A stretch of DNA of 52,454 nucleotides from Blastocatellia bacterium. GTDB lineage: Bacteria; Acidobacteriota; Blastocatellia; HR10; J050. Position numbers and translations under genes: made by a program. The notes under the pieces are model-generated. The model did not search any database and was not told where the DNA came from. It saw nothing but the letters and a program-made list of their open reading frames with translations. The DNA lies in assembly GCA_026985075.1 (NCBI GenBank), contig JALSQX010000036.1, forward strand, positions 1-52,454, given 5' to 3'. Shown here piece by piece: positions 10,973-44,496 of the stretch (within the stretch, counting starts at the first letter, position 1; every line of letters starts with the position of its first letter).

Positions 10973-10973
10973 G

Positions 10974-13153: not shown

Positions 13154-13220
13154 GAACTCGGTAACTGATTGAGAATCAACAACAACCCGCCGTCACGAGA
13201 GCGATGGGCGCGACCACCAA

Positions 13221-13236: not shown

Positions 13237-13280
13237 TATTCAATAGTGGAGACGGGCGTAGACAAGGAGGGGAAAGGATC

Positions 13281-13523
13281 ATGGATGTGGTACTGGCGTT
13301 GAACGACGTTGCCGAACTTCTCAGCAAACTGGAAGCCAAGAGCCTCCGGAGGCGGAATGGCCGCGGGCAACCGGTCAGGAAGAGAGGCTACCGATTCAGA
13401 AGTTTGTCACCCCCTGAGGTGGCAGGAAGGAGGGAGCCATGTCGCAGGCCAGACGCCGTGGACCATTCGACAGTTCAGAAAGCGGTCGCCTCGATCGCCG
13501 CGAATTCGTCAAACTCTGCTTGA
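13281..13523 (+). CDS. Possible leader ORF upstream of hybO
   Basis: ATG 13281 is preceded by a strong AAGGAGG and follows the sigma-54 promoter. The 80-codon frame starts MDVVLALNDVAELLSKLEAK, then turns very arginine-rich and runs 85 bases into hybO in another frame. The first ~22 residues look like a genuine helix; the rest looks like out-of-frame reading. It may be a remnant or a translated leader. I recognise no family. Confidence 0.3.
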   Translation: MDVVLALNDVAELLSKLEAKSLRRRNGRGQPVRKRGYRFRSLSPPEVAGRREPCRRPDAVDHSTVQKAVASIAANSSNSA

Positions 13524-14569: not shown

Positions 14570-15444
14570 CGATGAATCGACGCGCTCTGCTCAAGGGACT
14601 GGGAGCCGTGGGAGTGGCCACGGCGACAGGCGCGCGCCCGGTGACAGCGCGCTCGCGCCGGCCAGTTGCCGAAGACGCCGTGGGCATGCTGTACGACGCC
14701 ACCCGGTGCATCGGCTGCAAGACCTGTATGGTGGCTTGCCGAAGAGCCAACCACTTGCCCTATGAGAAACCCGGACATCCGTGGGATGATCCGGTCGATC
14801 TCTCGGGAAGGACGAAGACCGTCATTCAGCGCTACCGGGGCCGGGAAGGCCAGTCCTACATGAAGAGACAATGTCTCCATTGTCTCGATCCGGCGTGCGT
14901 CTCCGTGTGCATGATCGGAGCGATGCACAAGAGCGAAGGGGGTATCGTGGCCTACGATCCCGACCGGTGCATCGGCTGCCGATATTGTCAGGTCGCATGC
15001 CCGTTCGACGTCCCCCGATTCCAGTGGGACTCGCCGACGCCCAAGATCGTCAAGTGCGAGATGTGCCGCCACTTGCTGGCTCGGGGACGACGCCCCGCCT
15101 GCTGCGAGGTCTGTCCCACTGGCGCGGTGCAGTTCGGGAAACGAAAGGCTCTCCTGGCGGAGGCCAAACGCCGCATCGCTCGTCACCCGGACCGGTATGT
15201 TCCCAAGGTCTACGGGGAATCCGACGCCGGGGGAACCCAGGTCCTCTATCTCTCTTCAGTCCCCTTCGAGAAGTTGGGGCTCCCCCATCTGGGGACTGAG
15301 CCCATCCCCAGGCTCTCTGAAACCGTGCAACACGGCATCTACAAGGGCTTCATCGTGCCGGCCGCTCTCTACGTTCTGATCGGAGCGGCAGTTCGACGCC
15401 ATCACCGTCAGCGGTCGGTCGATGGACGGAAGGAGGAGACATGA
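14566..15444 (+). CDS. hybA: Hydrogenase-2-type Fe-S electron carrier
   Basis: 292 residues from ATG 14566, overlapping the hybO stop (ATGA). A twin-arginine leader (NRRALLKGLGAVGVATA) precedes four cysteine clusters: CIGCKTCMVACRRAN, CLHCLDPACVSVCMIGA, CIGCRYCQVACPFDV and CEMCRHLLARG...CCEVCPTGA, so four [4Fe-4S] centres are likely. A C-terminal membrane helix (GFIVPAALYVLIGAAVRR) holds it at the membrane. In E. coli HybA relays electrons from HybO to HybB and quinone. Confidence 0.93.
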   Translation: MTMNRRALLKGLGAVGVATATGARPVTARSRRPVAEDAVGMLYDATRCIGCKTCMVACRRANHLPYEKPGHPWDDPVDLSGRTKTVIQRYRGREGQSYMKRQCLHCLDPACVSVCMIGAMHKSEGGIVAYDPDRCIGCRYCQVACPFDVPRFQWDSPTPKIVKCEMCRHLLARGRRPACCEVCPTGAVQFGKRKALLAEAKRRIARHPDRYVPKVYGESDAGGTQVLYLSSVPFEKLGLPHLGTEPIPRLSETVQHGIYKGFIVPAALYVLIGAAVRRHHRQRSVDGRKEET

Positions 15445-16622
15445 ATCCACACGTTCATGCCTTACCCGAAGCGACGCTCCCCCGGTCGTTCCGCCTCCTC
15501 CGCATCCTGGTCGGCGCCGGAGTGGTGATGATGCTCTGGCGATTCCTGGCCGGTCTGGGGGCGACCACGGCACTCAACGATGGATATCCCTGGGGGCTCT
15601 GGATCGCCTTCGACGTCGTCACGGGAACGGCTCTAGCCTGCGGCGGTTATGCCATCGCCATTCTCGTCTACGTGCTGAATAAAGGAGCGTATCACCCCCT
15701 GGTGCGCCCGGCCCTGGTCACCAGCGCGCTCGGGTACACCTTGGCCGGACTGGCTATCGTCCTGGACGTGGGACGGTACTGGAATCTCTACAAGGTGCTC
15801 TACGTGTGGCGATGGAATCCGAACTCGGTCTTGCTGGAAGTAGCCCTCTGCATCATGGCCTATGTGGTCGTGCTGTGGATCGAACTCTCGCCGGCTTTCC
15901 TGGAGCGATGGCGCCAGAGCGCATCGAGGGCGCTCCGATGGATCTCCCAGAAGGGCGATCCCATCCTGCAGCGAGCGCTCATCTGGATCATCGCTCTGGG
16001 CATTCTGCTGCCCACGATGCATCAATCCTCTCTCGGTTCACTGCTGCTGATCGCCACCCACAAGCTGCATCCCCTGTGGCATACGCCTTTGCTTCCCCTG
16101 CTCTTCCTCATCTCCTGCATCGCCATGGGATATGCAGTCGTTGTATTCGAATCGGCGTTATCCAGTCATTTGTTCCATCGGCGTGTGGAGAAGCGCATGC
16201 TGGCCTCCTTGTCTTCGGTCATGGTGGGTGTGCTGTTGGTTTATCTCATCGCTCGGTTCGCCGATGTAGTTGTTCGAGGGCAACTCGCCGCGGCGTTCCG
16301 CTTCGATGGCTACAGTCTGCTGTTCCTCGTCGAGGTGGCATTATTCCTGGCGCCGGCATTGATGCTCCTCTCTCGGCGGGCGCGGTCCCGTTCGGGATCG
16401 CTCTTCCGCGCCGCCATGCTGATGATGTTGGCCGGGGCGTGGTATCGATTCGACGTCTATCTCATCGCATTCAATCCGGGGAGAGGATGGATCTACTTTC
16501 CATCGGTCCCCGAGTTGGTGATCAGCATGAGCATCGTGGCACTGGAGATCCTGGGCTATGTGGCCATCGTCCGGAGGTTCCCGATTCTCGGTGGGCTCAC
16601 CGCGGCCACCGTTGAACGTTAG
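15441..16622 (+). CDS. hybB: Hydrogenase-2-type membrane subunit, NrfD/PsrC family
   Basis: 393 residues with about ten predicted membrane helices, for example LVGAGVVMMLWRFLAGLGA, ALVTSALGYTLAGLAIVLDV and VMVGVLLVYLIARFADVV. The conserved N-terminal NDGYPWGLWIAFDVVTGTAL is characteristic of HybB/NrfD proteins, which are haem-free integral quinone reductases. Its start overlaps the hybA stop by 4 bases. It links H2 oxidation to the quinone pool. Confidence 0.92.
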   Translation: MNPHVHALPEATLPRSFRLLRILVGAGVVMMLWRFLAGLGATTALNDGYPWGLWIAFDVVTGTALACGGYAIAILVYVLNKGAYHPLVRPALVTSALGYTLAGLAIVLDVGRYWNLYKVLYVWRWNPNSVLLEVALCIMAYVVVLWIELSPAFLERWRQSASRALRWISQKGDPILQRALIWIIALGILLPTMHQSSLGSLLLIATHKLHPLWHTPLLPLLFLISCIAMGYAVVVFESALSSHLFHRRVEKRMLASLSSVMVGVLLVYLIARFADVVVRGQLAAAFRFDGYSLLFLVEVALFLAPALMLLSRRARSRSGSLFRAAMLMMLAGAWYRFDVYLIAFNPGRGWIYFPSVPELVISMSIVALEILGYVAIVRRFPILGGLTAATVER

Positions 16623-16631
16623 GAGGTGCCT

Positions 16632-18332
16632 ATGGGCAGACGCATCGTCATCGATCCCATCACTCGCATTGAAGGTCATCTCCGCATTGATGTGGAGGTG
16701 GATCGGGGCGTCGTCCGCAACGCTTGGGCGTCCGGTCAAATGTGGCGGGGGCTGGAACTCATCCTCCAGGGGCGAGATCCGCGTGATGCCTGGTTCTTCG
16801 CCCAACGCATCTGCGGCGTTTGCACCACCGTTCATGCCATCACTTCGGTGCGCGCCGTGGAGCAGGCATTGGGCCTGGAGATCCCTCTCAACGCGCAATA
16901 CATCCGCAACCTCATCCTCGCCGCTCATGCCCTGCACGATCATGTGGTGCACTTTTACCACCTCTCGGCATTGGACTGGGTGGACATCACCACCGTCCCC
17001 AAAGCAGATCCCGGAAAAGCCTCCCGACTCGCCGAGACGCTCTCTTCCTGGCCGGGCAACAGTCGTCGAGAGCTTCACGCGGTGAAGCAACGAATACGCG
17101 CGATTCTGGACAGCGGTCAACTGGGCATCTTCGCCAACGGCTACTGGGGTCATCCGGCGATGAAGCTCCCGCCAGAGATCAATCTGCTGGCCGTCGCCCA
17201 TTATCTCCAGGCGCTCCAATACCAGCGCAAAGCCAATCAGATCGTCGCCATACTGGGCGGAAAAACGCCCAACATCCAGAATCTGGCCGTGGGCGGAGTG
17301 ACCAATCCCATCGATCTCGATCATCAGGACGCCCTCAACATGGAAAAACTCTACTGGATCAAGGAGCTGTTCGAAGAGGTGGCGGCATTCATTCAACAGG
17401 TGTACCTGCCGGATGTCATCGCCATGGGAGCCGGATATCCCGAATGGCTGGGCTACGGAGCGGGAGTCACCAACTACCTGGCCGTCCCCGACATGCCTCT
17501 GGATACCCGGGGCACGACGTTCGATTTGCCGGGCGGCACCATCTTTGATGGTCGCCTGGAGACGGTGAGGACGTTCCAGAGCTTCGCCGACCCCTACTTC
17601 CGGGACAATGTGACCGAATGCATCGCTCACTCCTGGTATCGAGGGCACTGGACCCGACCGCCCTGGGAAGAGGAGACCATCCCCCACTACACGGCGTTCG
17701 ATCCGCGTGGAAAATACTCCTGGGTGAAAGCGCCTCGATTCGGTGGACGCCCCATGCAGGTGGGACCGCTGGCGCAAGTGCTGGTGGGCTACGCCTCGGG
17801 GCATGCGCTCATCCGCAAATGGGTGGATGAGGCGTTGTCACGGGCGTCCTCCCTGGCCGGCACCCGGATCGGCCTCGCGGCGCTCCACTCCACATGGGGA
17901 CGGCATCTGGCCCGGGCCGTGCGCGCCGCCGTCCTCTCGGAATTGGGACTGAAGCACTGGGAACGCCTGGCCGAGAATGTCGCCGCCGGAGATACCGACA
18001 TCTACGTGGCACCCACCTTCCCACCGGGCGAGCAGCGCGGATATGGATTCCACGAAGCGCCTCGCGGCACCCTCTCGCATTGGGTGGTCATCCGGGACGG
18101 GCGCATCGCCAACTACCAGGCGGTAGTCCCCTCGACCTGGAACGCCGGGCCGCGAGATGAGGACGGACAGATGGGACCTTACGAAGCCTCGTTGATCGGG
18201 AATCCGGTGATCGATCCGGAACGACCGCTGGAAGTGTTGCGCACGATTCACTCCTTCGATCCCTGCATGGCCTGTGCCATTCACCTCATCGATCCTGACG
18301 GCCACCAGGTTGTGCGGGTCGAGGTTCACTGA
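16632..18332 (+). CDS. hybC: Uptake [NiFe] hydrogenase large subunit
   Basis: 566 residues from ATG 16632 after AGGAGGTG; the protein starts MGRRIVIDPITRIEGHLRI, canonical for group 1 large subunits. L1 is RICGVCTTVHA; L2 is SFDPCMACAIHLID. The four cysteines bind the Ni-Fe(CN)2CO site. The last 15 residues after the final histidine (LIDPDGHQVVRVEVH) are the maturation peptide. All four ligands are standard cysteines, so it is not a NiFeSe enzyme. Confidence 0.95.
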   Translation: MGRRIVIDPITRIEGHLRIDVEVDRGVVRNAWASGQMWRGLELILQGRDPRDAWFFAQRICGVCTTVHAITSVRAVEQALGLEIPLNAQYIRNLILAAHALHDHVVHFYHLSALDWVDITTVPKADPGKASRLAETLSSWPGNSRRELHAVKQRIRAILDSGQLGIFANGYWGHPAMKLPPEINLLAVAHYLQALQYQRKANQIVAILGGKTPNIQNLAVGGVTNPIDLDHQDALNMEKLYWIKELFEEVAAFIQQVYLPDVIAMGAGYPEWLGYGAGVTNYLAVPDMPLDTRGTTFDLPGGTIFDGRLETVRTFQSFADPYFRDNVTECIAHSWYRGHWTRPPWEEETIPHYTAFDPRGKYSWVKAPRFGGRPMQVGPLAQVLVGYASGHALIRKWVDEALSRASSLAGTRIGLAALHSTWGRHLARAVRAAVLSELGLKHWERLAENVAAGDTDIYVAPTFPPGEQRGYGFHEAPRGTLSHWVVIRDGRIANYQAVVPSTWNAGPRDEDGQMGPYEASLIGNPVIDPERPLEVLRTIHSFDPCMACAIHLIDPDGHQVVRVEVH

Positions 18333-18338
18333 GGGAAC

Positions 18339-18917
18339 ATGAATCGACGGGAACATTACTGCGAGATGGGATCGCCCAGACGCGTGGTCATCCTCGGCCT
18401 GGGCAATGTCCTCATGGGAGACGATGGTCTGGGCCCTCGCGTCATCGAGCGGTTGGAGGCCGAATACGAATTTGGCCGGGATGTGACTTTCATGGACGTG
18501 GGCACTCCCGGTCTCCACCTTGTGGAGTATCTCATTGATGCCGATGTCCTCATCGTCATCGATGTGGCCAAGGGCGACGGTCGCCCGGGCGAATTGCGCC
18601 GGTATCGAGGCTCGCAGATGTTGCCCTCCCCGCCTGCCTGGCGCCTGACCGCCCACGATCCCGGTTTGAAGGAAGCCTTGTGGACGTTGCAGCTTCATGG
18701 TCGAGCGCCCAGCCAGGTATTGCTTCTCGCCGTCATTCCAGCCAAAATAGAGATCGGCCTGGGGTTGAGTCCCCGCGTCCAGGAGGCCATACCACTGGTG
18801 ATAGCGGCCGTGGTGCAGGAAGTGAAGCGATGGGGCATCCCCGTGCGGAAGCGCATCCCATCGGGCGAAACCGTCGGTGGGATGCGCCCCGCACCTGAGC
18901 GAGGCGAAGCGCGATGA
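18339..18917 (+). CDS. Hydrogenase maturation protease (HybD-like)
   Basis: 192 residues with the nickel-binding glutamate replaced in the usual E/D position by aspartate: VVILGLGNVLMGDDGLGPRVIERL, then FMDVGTPGLHLVEYLIDADVLIVIDV and a histidine in LTAHDPGLKEAL. The family clips the C-terminal peptide of hydrogenase large subunits after nickel insertion. Lying 6 bp after hybC, it most likely processes HybC. The C-terminal ~30 residues extend beyond the usual ~160-residue length. Confidence 0.9.
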   Translation: MNRREHYCEMGSPRRVVILGLGNVLMGDDGLGPRVIERLEAEYEFGRDVTFMDVGTPGLHLVEYLIDADVLIVIDVAKGDGRPGELRRYRGSQMLPSPPAWRLTAHDPGLKEALWTLQLHGRAPSQVLLLAVIPAKIEIGLGLSPRVQEAIPLVIAAVVQEVKRWGIPVRKRIPSGETVGGMRPAPERGEAR

Positions 18918-19393
18918 CTTCTGAGCAGAATCCGCTCATCATCGGCGTCGGCAACATGGACTGCGGCGATGACGCCGTGGGCCTGTTGGTCGTGCGCCAA
19001 TTGCGCCGAACCCTTCCCGACCAGATAGGGATGCGGGAAACCAACGGTGACGCTCTGGAACTCATGGAACTCTGGCGCGGCAGCGAACGGGTCATCCTCA
19101 TCGACGCCATTCAATCGGGCGTCGAGCCGGGAACGATTCACCGATGGGAAGTCCACCATGGACCGCTGCCCGGTCGTTGGTTCGCCCACTCGACGCATGC
19201 GCTGAGCGTGGCCGAAGCCATCGAAATCGCCCGGGCGCTGGGAGAACTCCCGTCATGGTTCGTCGTCTATGGGATCGAAGGTCGCCAGTTCGAGGTCGGC
19301 GCCGAACTCTCCCTGCCGGTCAGGCGGGCGATGCCCGAACTCCTGCGCCGGATCAGGCAGGATGTCCACCGCCTCTCCGACCCAGGGAGATGA
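18914..19393 (+). CDS. Second hydrogenase maturation protease
   Basis: 159 residues; start overlaps the previous stop by 4 bases. Motifs LIIGVGNMDCGDDAVGLLVVRQL, ILIDAIQSGVEPG and STHALSVAEAIEIA fit the M52 family, and STHALS contains the nickel-binding histidine. It is more like the proteases that serve cytoplasmic group 3 enzymes, so it may process the large subunit at 11743 (inference from there being two hydrogenases and two proteases). Confidence 0.88.
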   Translation: MTSEQNPLIIGVGNMDCGDDAVGLLVVRQLRRTLPDQIGMRETNGDALELMELWRGSERVILIDAIQSGVEPGTIHRWEVHHGPLPGRWFAHSTHALSVAEAIEIARALGELPSWFVVYGIEGRQFEVGAELSLPVRRAMPELLRRIRQDVHRLSDPGR

Positions 19394-19407
19394 GGAGGAT
19401 CTGACTC

Positions 19408-19671
19408 ATGCACGAGTTCTCTCTGATGCTGGATCTCATCCGCCAGGTGGAAGCGCTCGCTCGCCAGCGCGGCGCGCAACGGGTCACCTCCATCAAGCTG
19501 CGATTGGGACCGCATGCTCATCTGTCGGCTTCTCATCTTCGCGACCTCTTCCCTCTGGTCGCCCGAGGAACGATGGCCGAAGGAGCGCGAGTGGACATCA
19601 ATGTCCGGGTCGATCCAGATGACCCGTACGCTCACGACGTGCTGCTGGAGAGCGTGGAAATGGAGGTGTGA
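19408..19671 (+). CDS. hypA: HypA-like nickel chaperone lacking the zinc ribbon
   Basis: Only 87 residues, against ~115 for typical HypA. The N-terminus MHEFSLMLDLIRQVE keeps the nickel-binding Met-His-Glu. The fold continues through VTSIKLRLGPHAHLSASHLRDLFPLVARGTMAEGA and closes with a typical last strand (LLESVEMEV). The whole segment with the two C-x2-C zinc motifs is absent and the protein contains no cysteine. GAGGA precedes ATG 19408. HypA normally works with HypB, yet no hypB is found here. Confidence 0.82.
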   Translation: MHEFSLMLDLIRQVEALARQRGAQRVTSIKLRLGPHAHLSASHLRDLFPLVARGTMAEGARVDINVRVDPDDPYAHDVLLESVEMEV

Positions 19672-22091
19672 TGCCGGAAGACGCGCGATCGACGAAAACA
19701 ACCAGCGGAACGGCCCATCGTCGCCTGCGCGTCGTCATTCGCGGCGCCGTGCAAGGCGTGGGATTCCGTCCTTTCGTCTATCGACTGGCCGCCGAGTTGA
19801 ACCTCACCGGTTGGGTGCTCAATTCCTCGCAAGGCGTGTTCATCGAAGTGGAAGGCGCTCGACAGCCACTGGAGAGCTTCTTGTTCCGTCTGGACCGCGA
19901 ACGACCGCCCCGTTCGTTCATTCACAGTCTGGAGTATTCATTCCTCGATCCCGTCGGCTACGCGCGATTCGAAATCCGAACAAGCGATGACCGGGGAGAC
20001 AAAACGACACTGATTCTGCCCGACATCGCCACGTGCTCCGACTGTTTGAGGGAGATCTTCGATCCCGCAGATCGTCGCTACCGTTATCCATTCACCAACT
20101 GCACCAATTGCGGCCCCCGCTTCTCGATCATCGAAGCACTGCCTTACGATCGATCGCACACCACGATGAAACGTTTTGTCATGTGCGCGCAATGCCGCGC
20201 CGAATACGAGAATCCACGAGATCGCCGCTTTCACGCTCAACCCAATGCCTGTCCCCACTGCGGCCCGCACCTCGAACTCTGGGATGGCACAGGGAGGGTC
20301 CTCGCGACGCATCACGAGGCCCTGCTCGCAGCGGCCGAGGCCATTCGCCGTGGTCTCATCGTCGCCGTCAAGGGATTGGGGGGATTCCATCTCATCGTCG
20401 ATGCGCGCTGTGACCGGGCTGTCCGGCGGTTGCGGACGCGCAAGCGCCGGGAAGAGAAACCCTTCGCCTTGATGTATCCGTCGCTCGAACTCGTCAAAGC
20501 GCATTGTGAGGTCTCCGAACTGGAAGAGCGTCTTCTCACCTCGCCGGAATCGCCCATCGTCCTGCTTCGGCGCAAGTCCACCAGGCCGCCCGATCCGGCA
20601 TCGAAGATTTCTCCGGCGGTGGCGCCCCACAATCCCACTCTCGGCATCATGCTCCCGTATACGCCGCTCCACCACCTGCTGCTGGCCGAGCTGGGATTCC
20701 CCGTAGTCGCCACCAGCGGGAACCTCTCGGATGAACCCATATGCATCGACGAGCGGGATGCGCTCGTCCGACTCGGCGATATCGCCGACCTGTTTCTCGT
20801 TCACAATCGACCGATCGCCCGTCACGTGGATGATTCCGTGGTGCGCATCGTGTTGGGGCGGGAGTTGGTGCTGCGCCGCGCTCGCGGTTATGCGCCCCTG
20901 CCGCTCCCGCTGAAACGTTCATCTCCACCATTGCTGGCCGTGGGCGCTCACTTGAAAAACACCGTCGCCCTCACGGTTGACCATCAGGTGTTCATCAGCC
21001 AGCACATCGGCGACCTGGAGACGGCGGAGGCCTTCACCGCGTTTCAGCGCGTCATCAGCGACTTGCAGCGACTTTATGATGTTCGTCCCACCGTCATCGC
21101 TCGTGACGCGCATCCGGAGTATCTCTCGACCAAGTACGCCCGGAATCACGGCGCGCCGAGCATCGACGTTCAACATCACGTGGCCCACGTTGTCTCCTGT
21201 ATGGCGGAGAACGAACTGGAGGGTCCCGTGTTGGGCGTGGCCTGGGATGGAACCGGATACGGGCCGGATGGGACCATCTGGGGCGGCGAATTCCTGCGCG
21301 TGGAAGGGGACGCCTGGGTCCGCGTGGCTTCCTTCCGAACGTTCGGCCTCCCGGGAGGCGAGCGAGCGATCAAAGAGCCCAGGCGCTCAGCGCTCGGATT
21401 GCTCTATGAGATCTTCGGCGCCGCACTATTCCAGATGACCGACCTTGAACCGGTGCGGGCATTCACTGGCCGGGAACTCGCCGTCTTGCAGACGATGCTT
21501 CAGAAGCACCTCAACGTGCCGCGAACGTCCAGCGTCGGACGGTTATTCGATGCCGTGGCTGCCATTGCCGGACGGCGTCAGAGAATACGCTTCGAGGGAC
21601 AGGCCGCGATGGAACTGGAGTTCTCGCTGAATGGCATCCGCACCGATGCGACCTATCCATTCCGGATCGTGGAACCGGTGCCCTCCCCTGTCCGGCTCGC
21701 CGCCGGCGCCTCGTCGCCCATTTACATCATCGATTGGGAACCGATGATGCGGGAGATCGTGGACGATGTTCGTCGTGGCGTCGCCCTCGGAGAGATCTCG
21801 GTCCGATTCCACAACACGTTGATCGAAGCCATCGTGGCGATAGCCGAGCGCGCGGGGGAAGAACGCCTCGTGCTCACCGGGGGGTGCTTTCAAAATACCT
21901 ATTTGACCGAACGAGCCGTCCACCGCCTGCGCGCCGAGGGCTTTCGTCCCTACTGGCACCAGCGGATTCCACCCAACGATGGCGGTATCGCCCTGGGACA
22001 AGCGGTGATCGCCGGGTGGCGATGGAAGGAGGATGTCGACGACCATGTGCCTCGCCGTTCCTGGAAAGATTGTGAGTATCAGTGGCGATGA
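19671..22091 (+). CDS. hypF: Carbamoyltransferase HypF
   Basis: 806 residues; GGAGGTG precedes ATG 19671, which overlaps the hypA stop. Domain order: acylphosphatase-like (RGAVQGVGFRPFVYRLA), two zinc fingers (CSDCLREIFDP...CTNCGPRFS and CAQCRAEYENP...CPHCGPH), a YrdC-like domain (VKGLGGFHLIVDARCD, RKRREEKPFALMYP, VVATSGNLSDEPI) and a Kae1-like carbamoyltransferase domain (HVAHVVSCMAEN, AWDGTGYGPDGTIWGGEF, LTGGCFQNTYL). It makes the thiocarbamate on HypE that becomes the cyanide ligands. The 3' end overlaps hypC by 47 bases. Confidence 0.95.
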   Translation: MPEDARSTKTTSGTAHRRLRVVIRGAVQGVGFRPFVYRLAAELNLTGWVLNSSQGVFIEVEGARQPLESFLFRLDRERPPRSFIHSLEYSFLDPVGYARFEIRTSDDRGDKTTLILPDIATCSDCLREIFDPADRRYRYPFTNCTNCGPRFSIIEALPYDRSHTTMKRFVMCAQCRAEYENPRDRRFHAQPNACPHCGPHLELWDGTGRVLATHHEALLAAAEAIRRGLIVAVKGLGGFHLIVDARCDRAVRRLRTRKRREEKPFALMYPSLELVKAHCEVSELEERLLTSPESPIVLLRRKSTRPPDPASKISPAVAPHNPTLGIMLPYTPLHHLLLAELGFPVVATSGNLSDEPICIDERDALVRLGDIADLFLVHNRPIARHVDDSVVRIVLGRELVLRRARGYAPLPLPLKRSSPPLLAVGAHLKNTVALTVDHQVFISQHIGDLETAEAFTAFQRVISDLQRLYDVRPTVIARDAHPEYLSTKYARNHGAPSIDVQHHVAHVVSCMAENELEGPVLGVAWDGTGYGPDGTIWGGEFLRVEGDAWVRVASFRTFGLPGGERAIKEPRRSALGLLYEIFGAALFQMTDLEPVRAFTGRELAVLQTMLQKHLNVPRTSSVGRLFDAVAAIAGRRQRIRFEGQAAMELEFSLNGIRTDATYPFRIVEPVPSPVRLAAGASSPIYIIDWEPMMREIVDDVRRGVALGEISVRFHNTLIEAIVAIAERAGEERLVLTGGCFQNTYLTERAVHRLRAEGFRPYWHQRIPPNDGGIALGQAVIAGWRWKEDVDDHVPRRSWKDCEYQWR

Positions 22092-22299
22092 TCCCCTCTT
22101 GCGTATGGGGAAAGTGAGCTTCGGGGGCATCGTCAAAGAGGTCAACCTCTCCTACGTGCCGGAAGCCGAAGTCGGTGACTATGTGATGGTGCATGTCGGA
22201 TTCGCCATCAGCATTGTGGATGAGAAAGAGGCCGAACGCGTGTTCGAATACCTCCGGCAGATGGACGAGCTCATCGAACTCCAGGAGGACGCCCGATGA
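22045..22299 (+). CDS. hypC: Hydrogenase assembly chaperone HypC/HybG
   Basis: 84 residues starting [12 protein letters not shown], with the essential cysteine 2. ATG 22045 is chosen over 22033 because the family requires Cys2 at the processed N-terminus and AAGGAGG (22026-22032) has usable spacing to it only. It forms a complex with HypD and delivers the Fe(CN)2CO unit to the large subunit. Only one hypC is present for two hydrogenases. Confidence 0.94.
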
Positions 22300-23396
22300 G
22301 ATTCATCGACGAGTATCGCGACGCGCGCGCCGCCCGGCGCTACGCTCGCGCCCTGGCGCGCCTGACGACGCGACCGTGGACGATCATGGAGATCTGCGGC
22401 GGTCAGACGCACACCATTGTGAAATTCGGTATCGACGAGCTCCTGCCTCCAGAGATCACGCTGGTGCATGGTCCTGGCTGTCCGGTGTGCGTCACGCCCA
22501 TCGAACTCATCGACAAGGCCATTGACATCGCGTCCCGACCGGACGTCATCTTTTGCTCGTTCGGCGACATGCTGCGCGTGCCGGGCACGGAGAAAGATCT
22601 CCTCACGGTCAAAGCCCATGGCGGCGACGTGCGGATCGTTTACTCTCCGCTCGATGCCCTGGAATTAGCCAAGCAGAACCCTCATAAAGACGTCGTCTTT
22701 TTTGCCGTGGGATTCGAAACCACGGCACCGGCCAATGCCATGGCCGTCTTTCAGGCGCATCGGCAAGGGGTTGATAATTTCTTCCTGCTCGTCTCGCACG
22801 TTCTCGTCCCTCCAGCGATGGAAGCCATCCTCTCCTCGCCGCATAACCGGGTGCAAGGATTCCTGGCCGCCGGCCACGTCTGCACCGTCATGGGATATAC
22901 CGAGTATGAACCCATCGCCAGGACATACCAGGTGCCCATTGTGGTCACCGGGTTCGAACCGCTGGATATTCTGCAAGGCGTTTACATGTGCATCAAGCAA
23001 TTGGAGGAAGGACGCGCCGAGGTGGAGAATCAGTACACCCGTTCGGTCCGCCGGCGCGGGAATCCATCGGCGCAGCAACTCATCCGGGAAGTCTTTCAGG
23101 TCGTCTCCAGGAAGTGGCGTGGCGTGGGAGAGATTCCCCGTAGCGGACTGGGGTTGCGGGAAAAGTATGCGCAATTTGACGCCGAACGGCGATTCGGCGT
23201 GGCCCATTCCACGATCGAAGAGCCGGCCGAATGCATGAGCGGGCTCATCCTGCAAGGGGCGATGTCTCCCCACCAGTGTCCGGCGTTCGGCACCCGATGC
23301 ACGCCCGAGCATCCACTGGGCGCCCCCATGGTGTCGTCCGAAGGAGCGTGTGCCGCTTACTATCGGTATCGGAGGTCCCCGGTCGATACACCGTGA
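22296..23396 (+). CDS. hypD: Hydrogenase formation protein HypD
   Basis: 366 residues, overlapping hypC by 4 bases. Conserved motifs: [28 protein letters not shown] (CxxC) and [11 protein letters not shown], with C-terminal [4Fe-4S] ligands around [18 protein letters not shown] and [10 protein letters not shown]. It is the iron-sulfur scaffold on which the Fe(CN)2CO group is built together with HypC and HypE. Confidence 0.95.
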
Positions 23397-23418
23397 ATCC
23401 AGCTTGAGGAGCGAAGCT

Positions 23419-24474
23419 ATGGAGTCCGAACGAGATTTCACCCCTCAATGTCCTATTCCCCTCACCGAATATCCTCACATTCTGCTCGCCCATGGCGGCG
23501 GGGGCGAACTCATGCACCACCTCATCGAGAAAATGTTTCTGCCCGCATTCCGCAACGCGCTGCTCGACGCTCAACACGATGGGGCTGTGCTCGATCTGGA
23601 GGGCATTCGGTTGGCTTTCACCACCGATTCGTACGTCGTCCATCCGCTCGTCTTCCCCGGCGGTACTATCGGCGATCTGGCCATCAACGGCACAGTCAAT
23701 GACCTGGCCATGTGCGGCGCGCGCCCGCTGTTTTTGAGCGCGGGCTTCATCCTGGAAGAAGGTTTACCCATGGAGACGCTCTGGCACATCGTTCAATCCA
23801 TGCAACGGGCCGCCGAACGAGCCAAGGTGCAACTGGTCACCGGCGACACCAAAGTCGTCGATAAAGGGAAAGGCGATGGTCTGTTCATCAATACAACCGG
23901 CATTGGCATCATCGAACACAACTGCCTCATCGCTCCCCATCGCGTTCAACCTGGCGACGCCATCCTCCTCAATGGTGATATCGGACGCCATGGCATCGCC
24001 ATCATGGCGGTACGCGAAGGGTTGGCGTTCGAAAGCCCCATCGAGAGTGATACGGCTCCATTGGCGGATCTCGTGCTTCAGCTTCTGCAGGCCGGCATTG
24101 ATGTGCACTGCCTCCGCGATCTCACCCGGGGCGGATTGGCGAGCGCGTTGAATGAGATCGCTCGAGCCGGTGGAGTGCACATCCATATTGAGGAGAGTGC
24201 TATCCCCGTGTGCGAAGACGTGCGTGGGGCGTGCGAGATCTTAGGACTCGATCCGCTCTACGTCGCCAATGAAGGGCGATTGGTCGCCTTCATCGGTCCG
24301 ACGGATGTCGAGCGAGTCCTGACGATCATGCGCGCACATCCTCTGGGTGCCGATGCTCGTCTGATCGGTCGCGTCACCGATGATGACCCCGGTCTGGTGA
24401 CGATGACGAGCGCCATTGGCGCCCGGCGCGTCGTGGATATGCTGAGCGGCGAGCAGCTCCCACGAATCTGCTGA
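23419..24474 (+). CDS. hypE: Hydrogenase expression/formation protein HypE
   Basis: 351 residues from ATG 23419 (GAGGAG upstream). A PurM-like ATPase with [35 protein letters not shown] and [17 protein letters not shown], ending with the essential PRIC tail whose cysteine carries the thiocarboxamide and then thiocyanate. It dehydrates the carbamoyl group transferred by HypF. It is the last gene of the maturation cluster; hypB is absent. Confidence 0.95.
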
Positions 24475-36478: not shown

Positions 36479-37939
36479 ATGGTGAAACACGCTCACTCGA
36501 TGACCGGTTGGAGGAAGCCGCTCCCGATGCTCGCCTCCCTTCTACTGTTCTTCGCCAGCCCGATGCCACTCAGGGCTATCCCCCAAGCTGACCACCGGCC
36601 GCAGCGAGAAACTGTCACATCGCCCGCCTCCGGCGAATCAACCTCGCCTGGAGGAAAACCCGCGGACGGGCACCGCCGGCGCTCGCTTTCGCCCAACCGG
36701 GCGGAGGCCGCGCAACTGGTCCAACAGGTGGCCATCCGGGCGGCGAGCCAGACCGAACCCGTGGTCACTTTGGACGAGCTCATTGGAGAAGCACTCGCCA
36801 ACAACCCGCAGATTCAGGCCGCGCGGCGGATGGTCGACGCCAAACGACTCCAGATTCAACCCGCCCGCACGTTGCCCGATCCCGTCATCGGGTTCCAGAC
36901 CATGGGCAATCTGATCCCACCGACGCTCCAGTCGGGCGATCCGAGTAGCGCGCGAACGATCAGCATCACGCAACCCATCCCCTTCCCGGGCAAGCTCGCG
37001 CTCAAAGGGAAGATGGCCGCCATGGCCGCCGACGCCGAGTGGTGGCAATACGAGTACGTGCGGCGCGATGTGATCGCCCGGGTCAAGACGACGTACTATC
37101 AGCTCTACTATGTCACCAAAGCCATCGACATCGTGAAAAAAGATAAGGACTTGCTGGAGAAGTTCGAGCGCATCGCCGAGGCCAAGTATCAGGTCGGCGA
37201 GGGCATTCAGCAGGACGTCTTGAAAGCCCAGGTGGAGATCTCCCGGCTTCTGGATCGGCTGACCGTTCTGGAGGAGCGGCGAGACACGCTGGTGGCTCAG
37301 TTGAACAGCCTGCTCTACCGACCGCCGGAGGCCCCTCTGGGGCGCCCGGCCGAGATCCGGCAAGCGGAGTTTCCGTACTCTATGGATGAGCTCTATCGAA
37401 TGGCCCTCACTCAATTCCCCCTTCTCAAGCGTCAACAGCGGGAAATCGACCGCTACGAGTATGCCGTCCAACTGGCCAAGAAAAATTTCTACCCCGATTT
37501 TGAAGTCGGATTCCGCTACTTCAACCGGACGCCCATGCCCGAGATGTACGAGCTCATGTTCAAGGCCAAGGTGCCTCTTTACTTCTGGCGCAAGCAACGC
37601 CCGGCCTTGCACAGCGCCGCCTCCGAGTTGGCCAGTGCGCGCAAGCGTTACGACCAATTGACGGCCCTCCTCTACTTCCAGTTGAAAGATCGCTATCTGG
37701 CGGCGACGACGGCGGCGCGACTCGTCGAACTCTATGGAACGGCCATCGTACCTCAAGCCACATTGGCCCTGGAATCATCGGTGGCCGCTTATCAGGTGGG
37801 GAAGGTGGATTTCCTCACCTTGCTGAATAATCTCATCACCCTGCTCGATTACGAGTTGAAGTATTACGAATCGCTGGCCGATTATCAGAAAGCGCTCGCT
37901 GAACTCGAGCCGTTTGTGGGCATCGAGCTGACCAAATAG
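36479..37939 (+). CDS. TolC-family outer membrane efflux protein (CusC/CzcC-like)
   Basis: 486 residues. The AGGAGG is only one base before ATG 36479, so GTG 36482 or ATG 36500 may be used. Signal peptide (LPMLASLLLFFASPMPLRA), a variable linker, then two OEP repeats: VTLDELIGEALANNPQIQAA...ISITQPIPFPGKLALKG and the second from SMDELYRMALTQFPLLKRQQ...GKVDFLTLLNNLITLLDYELKYYE. It forms the outer membrane channel of the tripartite RND system encoded next. Confidence 0.9.
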   Translation: MVKHAHSMTGWRKPLPMLASLLLFFASPMPLRAIPQADHRPQRETVTSPASGESTSPGGKPADGHRRRSLSPNRAEAAQLVQQVAIRAASQTEPVVTLDELIGEALANNPQIQAARRMVDAKRLQIQPARTLPDPVIGFQTMGNLIPPTLQSGDPSSARTISITQPIPFPGKLALKGKMAAMAADAEWWQYEYVRRDVIARVKTTYYQLYYVTKAIDIVKKDKDLLEKFERIAEAKYQVGEGIQQDVLKAQVEISRLLDRLTVLEERRDTLVAQLNSLLYRPPEAPLGRPAEIRQAEFPYSMDELYRMALTQFPLLKRQQREIDRYEYAVQLAKKNFYPDFEVGFRYFNRTPMPEMYELMFKAKVPLYFWRKQRPALHSAASELASARKRYDQLTALLYFQLKDRYLAATTAARLVELYGTAIVPQATLALESSVAAYQVGKVDFLTLLNNLITLLDYELKYYESLADYQKALAELEPFVGIELTK

Positions 37940-37965: not shown

Positions 37966-39585
37966 ATGACGGAGAGACCGACACGGGATCCTGAGAACCA
38001 GGAAGATGTTCTTGAGATTCTCCGAAATACCATTGATGACCCCTCGTCACCTCAACGCAACCAGCCGGTCGGCGAGGAGGTGATCCGGACCGAGGCTTCC
38101 CACGCATCCGGGCGCGCAAGAGCGCAGCGCGTCCTCTTCGGTCTGGTCGCTCTGGTCGTGGTCGTAGGAGCGGCCAGCGCCATCGCCCCGGATATCGTCC
38201 CATCCTGGTTGGGAGGAGAATGGGGGCGCCACTCAACGGATGGCGCTCAGCACTCGGAGCATGGCGAGCGCAAGATTCTCTACTGGTACGATCCCATGCA
38301 TCCGTCCTACACCTCGGACAAACCGGGCATCGCTCCCGATTGCGGCATGAAACTCGTCCCCAAATACGCCGACGAAGCCGAAACGATGGCGGCCGACGCG
38401 GCATCGATGAGTTCGCAGCAACACCAGGGGCATGGCGAGCGCAAGATTCTCTACTGGTACGATCCCATGCATCCGTCCTACACCTCGGACAAACCGGGCA
38501 TCGCTCCCGATTGCGGCATGAAACTCGTCCCCAAATACGCCGATGAAGTGGAAGCCATGAAGGATATGGCCCCGGGCACGATCAGGCTGAGCACAGAGAA
38601 GCAGCAAATGATCGGCGTGAGGACCGAGGAAGCGAAAATCGTGCCCCTCAAGAAGACGATTCGCACGGTGGGGCGCATTGATTACGACGAGACGCGCATC
38701 GCCCGCGTCCACACCAAGGTTCCAGGATGGATCGAGAAGGTGTACGTCGATTACGTGGGACAAATCGTCAAGAAAGGACAACCGCTGTTCACCATCTACA
38801 GTCCGGAACTCGTCGCCACTCAGGAAGAATTTTTGCTCGCTCTGAAAGCGCGCGGGCAATTGGTGGAGAGTCGCTTCGAGGAAGTCGCGCGCGGGGCAGA
38901 GAGTCTGTTGGCCTCGACGCGCCGGAGATTGGAACTCTGGGATATCACCGATGAACAAATCGAGCAACTGGCGCGCACCGGAGAGGTGCAAAAGACGCTC
39001 ACCCTTTATGCGCCGGTCGATGGCGTCGTGCTCAAACGGAATGCCTACGAACAGATGCGCATCACGGCGGACACCAACGTCTATGAGATCGCCGATCTCT
39101 CCACCATCTGGGTCTATGCCGACATCTATGAGTACGAGATGCCATTCATTAAAGAGGGTCAACCGGCGACCATGAAGCTGGCGTACTTCCCCGGCGAGAC
39201 GTTCCGAGGGAAGATCGTGTACGTCTATCCCTACCTGGAAGGCAAGACGCGGACGCTGAAGGTGCGTATGGAATTCCCCAATCCCGATCTGAAGCTCCGC
39301 CCCGATATGTACGCCGATGTGGAGATCGATGTCCCGCTGGGCAAGTCGCTGGTCGTCTCCGAAGAGGCGGTCATCGATACGGGCATGCGCCAGTTCGTCT
39401 TCGTCGATCGCGGGAACGGATACTTCGAGCCTCGCGATGTCAAGTTGGGACTCAAAGTCGACGATCACTACCAGATCCTGGAAGGCCTCAAACCGGGCGA
39501 GCGCGTGGTGACCTCGGCCAACTTCTTGATCGATTCCGAAAGTCGGCTGAGCGCGGCTCTGGGAGGGATGTCGCACGGTCATTAG
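37966..39585 (+). CDS. RND periplasmic adaptor (CusB-like) with two identical metal-binding domains
   Basis: 539 residues; one N-terminal membrane helix (VLFGLVALVVVVGAASAIAP), then two exact copies of a 38-residue heavy-metal-binding unit (YWYDPMHPSYTSDKPG...DCGMKLVPKY), then the adaptor core: IGVRTEEAKIVPLKKTIRTV, barrel-sandwich VPGWIEKVYVDYVGQIVKKG, YAPVDGVVLKRNAYEQM, and a C-terminal VVTSANFLIDSES. Such units with Met/Cys/His ligands are found in Cu/Ag-type adaptors. A conserved HGE linker sits before each copy. Confidence 0.92.
   Translation: MTERPTRDPENQEDVLEILRNTIDDPSSPQRNQPVGEEVIRTEASHASGRARAQRVLFGLVALVVVVGAASAIAPDIVPSWLGGEWGRHSTDGAQHSEHGERKILYWYDPMHPSYTSDKPGIAPDCGMKLVPKYADEAETMAADAASMSSQQHQGHGERKILYWYDPMHPSYTSDKPGIAPDCGMKLVPKYADEVEAMKDMAPGTIRLSTEKQQMIGVRTEEAKIVPLKKTIRTVGRIDYDETRIARVHTKVPGWIEKVYVDYVGQIVKKGQPLFTIYSPELVATQEEFLLALKARGQLVESRFEEVARGAESLLASTRRRLELWDITDEQIEQLARTGEVQKTLTLYAPVDGVVLKRNAYEQMRITADTNVYEIADLSTIWVYADIYEYEMPFIKEGQPATMKLAYFPGETFRGKIVYVYPYLEGKTRTLKVRMEFPNPDLKLRPDMYADVEIDVPLGKSLVVSEEAVIDTGMRQFVFVDRGNGYFEPRDVKLGLKVDDHYQILEGLKPGERVVTSANFLIDSESRLSAALGGMSHGH
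38259..38372 (+). repeat. 114-bp perfect direct repeat, copy 1
   Basis: Identical base for base to 38430-38543 and in frame (offset 171 bp = 57 codons). Encodes one metal-binding unit of the adaptor. The separating 57 bp code for a Met/Ala/Glu-rich linker. Confidence 0.95.
38430..38543 (+). repeat. 114-bp perfect direct repeat, copy 2
   Basis: Second copy, no mismatches found including synonymous positions, implying recent duplication or ongoing gene conversion. Confidence 0.95.
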
Positions 39586-39683: not shown

Positions 39684-42600
39684 ATGATTGAGAAACTCAT
39701 CGAGTGGAGCGCGAAGAACAAATTTCTCGTTTTCTTGCTCACCTTCTTCGCCATCGCCTGGGGGTTGTGGGCGATGAAGAATACGCCGCTGGATGCCATC
39801 CCCGATCTCTCCGACGTCCAGGTGATCGTTTTCACCGAGTGGCCGGGACGAAGTCCGGATCTGGTCGAAGATCAGGTCACCTATCCGATCGTCACCAGTT
39901 TGATCTCGGCCCCGCGAGCGAAAGTCGTGCGGGGATATTCGTTCTTCGGCTTCTCATTCGTCTATGTGATTTTCGAGGATGGCACGGACATCTACTGGGC
40001 GCGGAGTCGCGTGCTCGAATATATGCAAAGCGTGGCGGGCAGCTTGCCCGAGGGCGTGACGCCGACGCTGGGGCCGGATGCCACCGGCGTCGGTTGGGCC
40101 TTCGAGTACGCGCTGGTGGATCGGACGGGGCGCCACGATCTCTCTCAATTGCGCACCATCCAGGACTGGTACGTGCGCTACTGGTTGGCGGCCGTCCCCG
40201 GCGTATCGGAAGTGGCCAGCGTTGGCGGCTACGTCAAACAATATCAGATCGAGCTGGATCCCGACACCTTGCTGGCCTATAACCTGCCGGTCACCCAAGT
40301 CATTCGCGCCATCCGCCGGAGCAATAACGACGTCGGCGGCCGCGTGGTCGAATTCACCGGACGCGAATATATGATTCGCGGCCTCGGTTATATCAAACGC
40401 GTCTCCGACATCGAACGCATCCCCGTGGGCACCGATGGCCGAGGGACGCCGATCACCATTCGCGATGTGGCCAAAGTTCATCTGGGACCGGATATTCGCC
40501 GGGGCGTGGCCGAACTCAACGGCGAAGGAGAGGTCGTCGGCGGCATCGTCGTCGTCCGCTACGGCGAGAACGCCCTGGAGGTGATCGAGCGCGTCAAAGA
40601 GAAGATCGAGGAGATCAAGAGAGCGCTCCCCGAAGGCGTCGAGCTCATTCCCGTCTATGATCGTTCGGAACTCATCTTGCGGGCCGTCGATACGCTCAAA
40701 GAGAAGCTCATCGAAGAGAGCCTCATCGTGAGTCTGGTCTGCATCCTCTTTCTCTTCCACTTCCGCAGCGCGCTGGTGGCTATTCTCACGCTTCCCATCG
40801 CCATTCTCATGTCGCTGGTGGCCATGTATTACATGGACATCAACTCCAACATCATGTCGCTCGGCGGCATTGCCATTGCCATCGGAGCGATGGTGGACGC
40901 CGCCATCGTGATGATCGAGAACGCGCACAAGCGCCTGGAGCACTGGGAACACACTGGCCGAGCCGGAGATCGGATGGAGGTGATCATTCGCGCCGCCAAG
41001 GAGGTGGGCAAACCGCTCTTCTTCTCGCTCCTCATCATCACCGTATCGTTCATGCCGGTGTTCACTCTGGAAGCCCAGGAAGGACGGCTATTCAAACCGC
41101 TGGCGTATACCAAGACATTCGCCATGTTCTTCGCCTCGATTCTCTCGGTGACGCTGGTTCCGGTATTGATGGTGCTGATGATTCGTGGGAAGATCGCCCC
41201 GGAGCACCAAAATCCCATCTCTCGCTTCCTCATCCGCGTTTACAATCCCATCGTCCACGCTGTGCTGCGATTCCGCAAGACGACGCTGGCCCTGGCCGTC
41301 CTGGTCTTGCTGGCCACCATCCCGGCGTTCACCCGGCTGGGCAGCGAGTTCATGCCCCCGCTCTACGAAGGCTCGCTCCTCTACATGCCCACCGGGCTGC
41401 CGGGGATGTCGATCACCCAAGCGCAGCAGATCCTGCAATTGCAAGATCGCATCATCAAACAGTTCCCCGAAGTGGCCTCGGTGTTTGGCAAAACCGGTCG
41501 CGCGCGCACGTCGACCGATCCGGCGCCACTGGAGATGATGGAGACGACCATCGTCCTCAAGCCGGAGAGCCAATGGCGCACGGTGCGACAGGATCGTTGG
41601 TATTCGTCTTGGGCGCCTCATTGGCTGAAACGACCGCTCGGCTGGATCTGGCCCGAGACGCGCCCGCTCACTCCGGAAGAACTCATCGATGAAATGGATC
41701 AAGCGCTCCGCCTCCCCGGCATCAGTAATTCCTGGACCATGCCCATCAAAGGGCGCATCGACATGCTCACCACCGGCATTCGCACGCCCATCGGCATCAA
41801 AGTCCTCGGTCCCGATCTCCAGGTCATTCAACAGATCGGCCAACACATCGAGCAAGTCCTCAAGGACGTGCCGGGAACGCGCAACATTTATGCCGAGCGC
41901 GTGGTCGGCGGTTATTTCTATGACTTCGAGATCGACCGCGATGAAGCCGCTCGATATGGACTGACCGTGGGAGACGTAGAAGACATCATCGAGACGGCCA
42001 TCGGAGGGAAAAACATCGCCCAGACCGTCGAGGGCCGTGAGCGATTCCCCATCAATGTTCGCTACGCGCGCGAACTGAGAGATGAACCTCAAAAGCTGGA
42101 GCGCGTGCTCGTCGCCACGCCAACGGGAGCGCAAGTCCCCTTAGCGCAATTGGCGCATATCCGACCTTCGATGGGACCGCCGGTGATTAAAAGTGAAGAC
42201 GGGGAACTGGTCGGGTACGTCTACGTCGATGTGGCCGGCCGCGATCTGGGCAGTTACGTCGACGAAGCGCGGCGCATCGTTCAGGAGCAGGTGCCCATGC
42301 CCCCGGGGTATCATCTCGTCTGGAGCGGGCAGTATGAGTACATGCAACGGGCCAAGCAACGGTTGCTCTACGTGATCCCGTTGACCCTTCTCATCATCTT
42401 CGTGCTGCTCTATCTGAACTTCCAGTCCGTCACCAAAACGATGATCGTATTGCTGTCGGTCCCCTTCGCGCTGGTGGGGGGCATCTGGCTACTCTATCTG
42501 CTCGGTTACAACTTGAGCGTCGCCGTTTGGGTCGGCATCATCGCTCTGGCGGGGGTGGCGGCGGAAACCGGCGTGGTGATGATCGTTTACCTGGACGAAG

Positions 42601-42917
42601 CGTATGAAGAACGCCTGCGCGCCGGGAAAATGAAGACGATGCGCGATCTCTATGACGCCGTCATCCATGGCGCTGTAATGCGCGTGCGACCGAAGATGAT
42701 GACGGTCACGGCCATCATGGCCGGACTGCTTCCCATCATGTGGAGTCACGGCACGGGCGCCGATGTCATGAAACGCATCGCCGCCCCCATGGTCGGCGGC
42801 ATGGTCACGTCAACGATTCTGACGCTGGTCATCATTCCGGTGATTTATGACATGTGGCGGGGGTTTCAATTACGACGACAGGCGAAAGCCCATATACCGG
42901 GTGACGCAGCACATTGA
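39684..42917 (+). CDS. cusA: Heavy-metal RND efflux pump (CusA/CzcA family)
   Basis: 1077 residues, starting MIEKLIEWSAKNKFLVFLLTF with the first helix. Family motifs: AIPDLSDVQVIVFTEWPGRSP, the helix-4 segment MSLGGIAIAIGAMVDAAIVMIENAHK, FMPPLYEGSLLYMPTGLPGMS and ERVVGGYFYDFEIDRDEAARYG. Together with the methionine-rich adaptor this suits the monovalent Cu/Ag group, though Zn/Co/Cd cannot be excluded. It pumps metal from periplasm to outside, driven by protons. Symbol given by family. Confidence 0.9.
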   Translation: MIEKLIEWSAKNKFLVFLLTFFAIAWGLWAMKNTPLDAIPDLSDVQVIVFTEWPGRSPDLVEDQVTYPIVTSLISAPRAKVVRGYSFFGFSFVYVIFEDGTDIYWARSRVLEYMQSVAGSLPEGVTPTLGPDATGVGWAFEYALVDRTGRHDLSQLRTIQDWYVRYWLAAVPGVSEVASVGGYVKQYQIELDPDTLLAYNLPVTQVIRAIRRSNNDVGGRVVEFTGREYMIRGLGYIKRVSDIERIPVGTDGRGTPITIRDVAKVHLGPDIRRGVAELNGEGEVVGGIVVVRYGENALEVIERVKEKIEEIKRALPEGVELIPVYDRSELILRAVDTLKEKLIEESLIVSLVCILFLFHFRSALVAILTLPIAILMSLVAMYYMDINSNIMSLGGIAIAIGAMVDAAIVMIENAHKRLEHWEHTGRAGDRMEVIIRAAKEVGKPLFFSLLIITVSFMPVFTLEAQEGRLFKPLAYTKTFAMFFASILSVTLVPVLMVLMIRGKIAPEHQNPISRFLIRVYNPIVHAVLRFRKTTLALAVLVLLATIPAFTRLGSEFMPPLYEGSLLYMPTGLPGMSITQAQQILQLQDRIIKQFPEVASVFGKTGRARTSTDPAPLEMMETTIVLKPESQWRTVRQDRWYSSWAPHWLKRPLGWIWPETRPLTPEELIDEMDQALRLPGISNSWTMPIKGRIDMLTTGIRTPIGIKVLGPDLQVIQQIGQHIEQVLKDVPGTRNIYAERVVGGYFYDFEIDRDEAARYGLTVGDVEDIIETAIGGKNIAQTVEGRERFPINVRYARELRDEPQKLERVLVATPTGAQVPLAQLAHIRPSMGPPVIKSEDGELVGYVYVDVAGRDLGSYVDEARRIVQEQVPMPPGYHLVWSGQYEYMQRAKQRLLYVIPLTLLIIFVLLYLNFQSVTKTMIVLLSVPFALVGGIWLLYLLGYNLSVAVWVGIIALAGVAAETGVVMIVYLDEAYEERLRAGKMKTMRDLYDAVIHGAVMRVRPKMMTVTAIMAGLLPIMWSHGTGADVMKRIAAPMVGGMVTSTILTLVIIPVIYDMWRGFQLRRQAKAHIPGDAAH

Positions 42918-42929
42918 GGGGAGAAGAAG

Positions 42930-43514
42930 ATGAAACGCAAGATGATCATAGCTGTTCTCATTGTCGTCCTGTCCGGAGCAACGCTCGTGATCATTCAAAT
43001 GCGCCGGCACGGATTCAGCGCCCGGGAAAATCCTTCCTGGCTGGAAGCGGCCATCGCGCGGCGGCTGCGGAACTTCGCCATCCCGGCGAGCGCCAGGAAG
43101 ACGACGAATCCCTACCCGTTCACCGATGCCCGACGGCGGTCGGCTCGTGACCATTTCATCGCCCATTGTGCCGTGTGTCACGGACCGGATGGCCGAGGGA
43201 ACACACCGATCGGCCGTAACCTTTATCCGAAAGTGCCCGACTTGACGAGCGCCGAGACACAGCAGCTCACTGACGGCGAACTGTACTATATTATTTCGAA
43301 CGGCGTTCGCTTCACCGGCATGCCCGCGTGGGGCGATGAAGATCGTCCGGAATCCATATGGGAACTGGTCGCCTTCATTCGCCGTCTCCCGCACCTCTCT
43401 CCCGAAGAACGCGAGCAGCTCGAGAAGCTCTTTGAGAGCCGCGAGCACGGAGAAGAAGGCGAAGCAACCGGGACGCATACTCATGGCCCGGAGGCCGAGC
43501 CGCATCATCACTGA
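42930..43514 (+). CDS. Membrane-anchored cytochrome c with His-rich tail
   Basis: 194 residues; GAGGGGAGAAGAAG precedes ATG 42930. N-terminal anchor (MIIAVLIVVLSGATLVIIQM), one haem motif CAVCHGPDGRGNTPIGRNLYP, axial methionine in GVRFTGMPAWGDEDRPE, WELVAFIRRLPHLSPEE, and a histidine-rich end (THTHGPEAEPHHH) likely to bind Cu, Ni or Zn. It lies 12 bp after the efflux pump gene, so a periplasmic redox role tied to metal stress is plausible. Confidence 0.9.
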   Translation: MKRKMIIAVLIVVLSGATLVIIQMRRHGFSARENPSWLEAAIARRLRNFAIPASARKTTNPYPFTDARRRSARDHFIAHCAVCHGPDGRGNTPIGRNLYPKVPDLTSAETQQLTDGELYYIISNGVRFTGMPAWGDEDRPESIWELVAFIRRLPHLSPEEREQLEKLFESREHGEEGEATGTHTHGPEAEPHHH

Positions 43515-43547
43515 GGAGTCACGAGCACTGGCGTGAAGGAGGATGCG

Positions 43548-44072
43548 ATGAAACGAAACACACGATCAAAGAGGTATCCTTTGGTGAGCCAACGGTGGTT
43601 GGTTCTCGCCGCCATCGGAATCGGACTGGCCATTGCCCTGTATTGGACGCGTCACGAGGATCGACCGGCATCCCCGGCACAGACGGTTCAATCGGAATTC
43701 ACACCCATATCTCCAGAGAGTGCGGAGCGCGTGCCTCCCTTTCATCCGACGGTCGAGGCGGCCAGACCTCTGCCACGGACGCTTCCGGCGAGCTGGTTCC
43801 GCAACCCGTTGGTGGCACGAGCCTATGCCATCGCCGAGCGCCTCCCCGAAGTTCTCGTCCAACAACCCTGTTATTGCTGGTGCGATCAGTTCGGTCACGG
43901 CAGCTTGTTGGATTGTTACGCCTCGGATCATGGTGCGACCTGACTGATCTGTATCAAGGAGGTGCTCCTTGCCGACCAGATGACGCGAAGTGGGAAAACG
44001 CCGGTCGAGATTCGTCAGGCCATCATTCTCGGCGATTGGAAAACTATTGAGTTGATTCCAGGAGAACATTGA
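43548..44072 (+). CDS. CYCXC-family selenoprotein (in-frame TGA = selenocysteine)
   Basis: AAGGAGG precedes ATG 43548. N-terminal anchor (WLVLAAIGIGLAIALYW), then QQPCYCWCDQFGHGSLLDCYASDHGAT and a TGA at 43941-43943. Past that TGA the same frame continues LICIKEVLLADQMTRSGKTP, then VEIRQAIILGDW, stopping at 44072, which is the normal C-terminal part of CYCXC/PCYCGC proteins (usually C-x2-C after DHGA). The TGA takes the place of the first cysteine (residue 132, C135 follows), and a SECIS-like hairpin sits right after it. A naive call would end the gene at 43943. Lipid-anchored or membrane-bound redox protein; function unproven. Confidence 0.85.
43955..43971 (+). promoter_or_regulatory. Putative bacterial SECIS hairpin
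   Basis: CAAGGAG-GTG-CTCCTTG: a perfect 7-bp stem with a GUG loop. The first loop base is G, 18 nt after the TGA (43941-43943). Known bacterial SECIS elements have a loop G roughly 16-37 nt after UGA on a short stem, which this satisfies. It lies inside the coding sequence. Confidence 0.75.
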
Positions 44073-44112: not shown

Positions 44113-44496
44113 ATGACGAAAACGCTTTCCCTGGTCACCGCCTTCTTCCTCTTGATGACCGGCGCCTGGGCGCTGGGGCACGAGCCTCACGAACCCAAGG
44201 CCAAAAAAGTCACGCTCATCGGCGAAGTCATTGATACGGTGTGCTACGTCAGCCATGAGTCGCGTGGTCCAGAGCATGCGCCATGCGCCCGCGCTTGCGC
44301 CGAACAAGGGATCTCGCTGGGCATTCTGGAGGAGAAGACGGGCAAGGTGTACATCTCCCTGCCCGTCGATCATACCAATCCCAACGCCAAACTGATGAAC
44401 TTCATCGCCCAGCGCGTGAAAGTGACCGGGACGGTCTTCAGCCGAGGCGGACTGACCGGCATTTATATAAAGACGGTCGAACCCGCCGCCAAATGA
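44113..44496 (+). CDS. Small periplasmic protein, unknown family
   Basis: 127 residues; GGAGG five bases before ATG 44113. Signal peptide (LSLVTAFFLLMTGAWALG) and a histidine/proline start of the mature protein (HEPHEPK) that could bind metal. Then VTLIGEVIDTVCYVSHESRG, a cysteine pair region PCARACAEQGISLGILE, and beta strands VKVTGTVFSRGGLTGIYIK resembling an OB-fold. It lies 40 bp after the selenoprotein and may work with it. Not identified further. Confidence 0.8.
   Translation: MTKTLSLVTAFFLLMTGAWALGHEPHEPKAKKVTLIGEVIDTVCYVSHESRGPEHAPCARACAEQGISLGILEEKTGKVYISLPVDHTNPNAKLMNFIAQRVKVTGTVFSRGGLTGIYIKTVEPAAK

Follow-up and report, generated by a model that had tools for sequence, protein, structure and literature searches.

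A CYCXC-family gene with a very probable selenocysteine UGA codon in a likely cusCBA-cytochrome c operon of a Blastocatellia bacterium

The CYCXC family protein, also known as hypothetical protein OS_HP4 (PF13798), is counted among the high-confidence predicted selenoproteins and carries the selenocysteine (Sec) within a UxxC motif (PMC13188914). The same source credits the OS_HP4 entry to Zhang and Gladyshev 2007 and to an Olavius symbiont. Since the NCBI name of the corresponding model NF041379, 'CYCXC family (seleno)protein', already includes the selenoprotein label, the gene described here is a further member of a known selenoprotein family, albeit one that was listed for years as merely hypothetical. 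Like the family, it has the CYCxC motif, and in its C-terminal C-x2-C pair the Sec comes first. Whereas the OS_HP4 work of 2007 concerned a deltaproteobacterial symbiont (according to the references of PMC13188914), the present member belongs to the Acidobacteriota and is located in an operon with cusCBA and a cytochrome c gene, which is a new setting for a CYCXC gene. A likeness to the CcmH domain is new as well, suggestive but unproven.

The window, i.e. the whole stretch of 52,454 nt that was analysed, contains a reading frame on the forward strand (43548-44072) which starts with ATG 43548 and holds an in-frame TGA as codon 132 (43941-43943, forward strand). A strong ribosome-binding site AAGGAGG (43536-43542, forward strand) is found 5 nt upstream of the start codon. 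The terminal stop is likewise a TGA (44070-44072). Translated with TGA as U, the frame yields a predicted CYCXC-family selenoprotein of 174 residues with Sec132. The original prediction that the frame passes through the TGA into the C-terminal part of the family is borne out by the translation and the family scores, apart from the number of sense codons that follow, which is 42 up to the stop and not 43. The TGA does take the place of the leading Cys in a C-x2-C pair (U132-L-I-C135). Under the standard code the product ends after 131 residues; as anticipated, a standard gene caller would thus cut the protein short and lose its active pair.

The N-terminus is positively charged and followed by one hydrophobic segment, a putative signal anchor spanning residues ~17-33 (43596-43646, forward strand). 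Such a layout points to a membrane-anchored protein whose domain lies outside the cytoplasm. In some homologues a lipobox-like Gly/Ala-Cys replaces the hydrophobic anchor. The CYCWC motif is located at residues 108-112 (43869-43883, forward strand), and its alignment columns C52, C54 and C56 are invariant. The complete invariant set of the alignment consists of C-x-C-x-C, His, Cys, His and Cys/Sec-x-x-Cys. Scored against NF041379 the read-through protein reaches 96.9 bits (E 5.3e-28; curated cut-off 90 bits), and against the Pfam model PF13798 (PCYCGC) 32.1 bits (cut-off 25 bits). With both cut-offs exceeded and both the CYCxC motif and the C-terminal UxxC present, the assignment to the CYCXC family stands.

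The original prediction had singled out two comparisons, the column of residue 132 among homologues and the Sec machinery of the genome. In homologues from the phylum this column is occupied by TGA 11 times and by Cys 33 times, hence by one of the two in all 44 sequences. The 11 TGA genes come from ten genomes plus the locus L026 of the Acidobacteria MAG J050. L026 encodes a homologue with 85% overall amino-acid identity to the window protein and keeps the TGA. For this pair, NG86 puts dN/dS at ~0.25 upstream of the TGA and ~0.16 over the 40 codons downstream, whereas YN00 gives 0.32 and 0.50, respectively, the latter being imprecise as it is based on few changes. The estimates point to purifying selection on both sides of the TGA. 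A tRNA-Sec is found in 9 of 10 genomes with the TGA form and in 34 of 70 genomes with Cys forms only (p = 0.017, Fisher test treating related genomes as independent). The sole genome with the TGA form and no tRNA-Sec, G253, has selB. Placing the two states on the tree needs four changes, at least three of them on well-supported branches. Since the phylum contains both TGA and Cys forms, separated by no fewer than three to four changes, it offers a good set for timing the gain and loss of Sec. In one Cys-form homologue (L039, genome G365) another TGA occurs a few residues beyond the end of the domain and is probably a normal stop.

The genome (5.2 Mb, 98.7% complete) contains all four components of the Sec machinery: a tRNA-Sec with the anticodon UCA (72.8 bits), selB (371 bits), selA (577 bits) and selD (L019, 369 bits). 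Neither this search nor the column comparison, both proposed along with the original prediction, refutes it. Moreover, selD is itself a selenoprotein gene: it carries an in-frame TGA at HGAG-U-ACK with a hairpin 17 nt later and so constitutes an internal control for the marking of Sec codons in this genome.

A hairpin CAAGGAG-GTG-CTCCTTG follows the TGA of the CYCXC gene at 43955-43971 (forward strand), with a 7-bp stem and the loop GTG. The published limits for bacterial SECIS elements are a spacing of 16-37 nt, a G in loop position 1 or 2 and a loop of 3-9 nt (PMC13188914). We coded these rules by hand for the scan. The predicted loop G (G43962) lies 18 nt after the TGA, and the hairpin satisfies the rules for spacing, loop and, just, for energy, its -7.5 kcal/mol being exactly at the limit of -7.5 kcal/mol. 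It resembles bacterial SECIS elements such as those of the E. coli formate dehydrogenase mRNAs in being a hairpin 3' of the UGA with a loop G at 16-37 nt, but differs from them by its shortness (7-bp stem, 3-nt loop) and a sequence that is fixed within its clade. The same test is passed by 92 of the 1900 TGA trinucleotides in the window (~5%) and by 1.5% of synonymous recodings of the CYCXC gene. Folding of the 60 nt around the TGA gave no advantage over shuffled sequences (z = -0.41). On its own, the hairpin supports Sec weakly.

Since the hairpin is ordinary by itself, the weight rests on the conservation of the TGA column, the hairpin and a Leu codon between genomes. Five TGA genes (the window gene, L026 and the genes of G235, G275 and G291) retain the pattern CAAGGAG-GNN-CTCCTTG, which is absent from the Cys homologues compared. 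The pattern includes the rare Leu codon CTT, which accounts for 5% of the Leu codons in window genes and is kept across diverged relatives. The codon series AAG GAG nnn CTC CTT occurs in four diverged lineages; with the codon usage of the window, the chance of finding it in three further lineages was computed as ~2e-7. TGA genes that are more distantly related carry another hairpin of this kind, whose loop lies 21-22 nt after the TGA with a G in loop position 1 or 2. In total, a hairpin of -6.6 to -9.2 kcal/mol with such a G is present in 11 of 11 TGA genes and in 2 of 33 Cys genes. Judged from this comparison of sequences, decoding of UGA codon 132 as Sec is very probable. SelB and tRNA-Sec would decode the codon, with help from the hairpin whose loop G follows it by 18 nt. 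The 5' arm together with the first loop base (43956-43962) also reads AAGGAGG, a perfect Shine-Dalgarno core shared by the five genes of the clade, which may be a by-product of the Lys-Glu codons or may slow the ribosome.

The CYCXC gene is preceded on the same strand by genes for an outer-membrane efflux protein of the CusC/TolC type (36479-37939, PF02321), a CusB-type adaptor with heavy-metal-binding domains (37966-39585, PF16576 and PF19335), a CusA/CzcA heavy-metal RND efflux pump (39684-42917, TIGR00914 with 1245.8 bits) and a c-type cytochrome with one CxxCH (42930-43514, PF13442 and PF00034). The gaps are 12 nt between CusA and the cytochrome and 33 nt between the cytochrome and the CYCXC gene, and the genes likely belong to the same operon. 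A small exported protein is encoded 40 nt 3' of the CYCXC gene (44113-44496, forward strand). No Pfam or NCBIfam match was obtained for it; it contains three Cys (VCY, PCARAC) and has one paralogue in the genome (contig C53). L026 preserves the gene order of the window, including the small protein beside the CYCXC gene. Around the other CYCXC loci that were examined, no relative of the cus operon, the cytochrome or the small protein was present. The cus neighbourhood is thus common to the window and L026 only, and the link to metal is a local one.

Based on these features we propose that the gene encodes a selenoprotein of the CYCXC (OS_HP4 / PCYCGC) family that is membrane-anchored and extracytoplasmic. 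The Sec-x-x-Cys pair, C-Y-C-x-C, the further invariant Cys and the two invariant His would most likely form a redox or soft-metal site. The protein probably partners the adjacent CusCBA-type pump and the c-type cytochrome, either as selenol/thiol oxidoreductase or within a metal-thiol relay. Given the anchor, a periplasmic location appears plausible, and some redox or metal-thiol role is somewhat favoured. The protein is most likely a selenol/thiol oxidoreductase or a metal-thiol handler of the periplasm.

A refinement of this assignment, fully compatible with Sec, would regard CYCXC/PCYCGC as a distant branch of the CcmH-type thiol oxidoreductases of cytochrome c maturation, the Sec form of which acts on Cys pairs of periplasmic clients, perhaps apo-cytochromes or similar proteins including the cytochrome encoded by the adjacent gene. 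The predicted structure of the CYCXC protein, with Sec modelled as Cys, is confident and all helical (pLDDT 94.9). A sequence search found no solved structure for it, and Foldseek returned no significant PDB match. VIA-align ranks the N-terminal domain of CcmH first among PDB structures (2kw0; Z 3.1, rmsd 3.7, 67 aligned residues), yet this similarity is very weak, with a Foldseek E of 8.2 and a Z that helical proteins can reach by chance. When the CYCXC profile was compared with one of 30 acidobacterial CcmH, the probability was 90.9; against the CxCGC type it was 89.9, and here C-x-C-x-C, a fourth Cys and the Sec column faced cysteines of CcmH. A first CcmH profile of only five sequences had given 22. 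Real profiles score 26.6-37.1 and column-permuted controls at most 20.9, but the signal derives mostly from the C-terminal helical hairpin, which is a common pattern. The acidobacterial CcmH of the phylum sample (L075-L104) comprise a CxxC and a CxCGC type.

Compared with the N-terminal domain of CcmH (PF03918; 2kw0), CYCXC proteins share the C-terminal helical hairpin and Cys columns that match the CxCGC subtype. They differ by an extra insert with a conserved His and by the UxxC pair, and the similarity is below the accepted threshold for homology. The Pfam model PF03918 is matched by none of 34 CYCXC members (E up to 10). CcmH is present in 21 of 24 CYCXC genomes versus 33 of 95 others, a co-occurrence confounded by lineage. 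The gene beside the CYCXC gene does encode a cytochrome c; the window genome itself, however, yields no CcmH match and carries ResB, of the other maturation system. We thus take the kinship as a lead rather than a result, and the underlying reading, a CcmH-type branch acting on periplasmic clients, as doubtful on balance. The broader idea that CYCXC/PCYCGC is an overlooked CcmH-like branch, in which several lineages use Sec instead of the attacking Cys and the present member serves a metal pump-cytochrome operon, is likewise rather unlikely. If true, it would provide a first testable function for a selenoprotein family of unknown role.

A still less probable reading is that the protein acts mainly as a soft-metal binder (copper or mercury type) for CusCBA, with Sec raising the affinity and not serving redox catalysis. 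It accommodates the invariant residues of the domain, six Cys/Sec and two His, as well as the position of the gene directly 3' of cusC, cusB with its heavy-metal-binding domains, cusA and the cytochrome gene. Against it, Cus genes adjoin the CYCXC gene solely in the window and in L026, and the redox motif usually seen in selenoproteins is UxxC (PMC13188914). If either the link to the metal pump or the likeness to CcmH holds, a hypothetical selenoprotein family gains a concrete, testable role.

That TGA 43941 is a true stop, be it in a pseudogene, by sequencing error or for a 131-residue product, is most improbable: TGA is the commonest stop codon among window genes, but it stands at one column in the independent genome L026 and nine further genomes, conservation extends beyond it, the hairpin is kept and the Sec machinery is present. 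Retention of the TGA in independent genomes led us to reject a sequencing error or pseudogene. Genome-wide recoding of TGA was rejected as well, TGA being the ordinary stop in 11 of 16 window genes. A restart past the TGA (in-frame GTG 43962, ATG 43980 or TTG 44052) would lose the invariant Cys motifs and was also discarded.

Elsewhere the window holds a hydrogenase cluster (8411-24474) with two nickel-dependent large subunits (11710-13038 and 16626-18332), a small subunit, NrfD, HypF, HypD and a SelD-like protein that is probably HypE. The C-terminus of the first large subunit reads DPCISC, with Cys and not Sec at this site.
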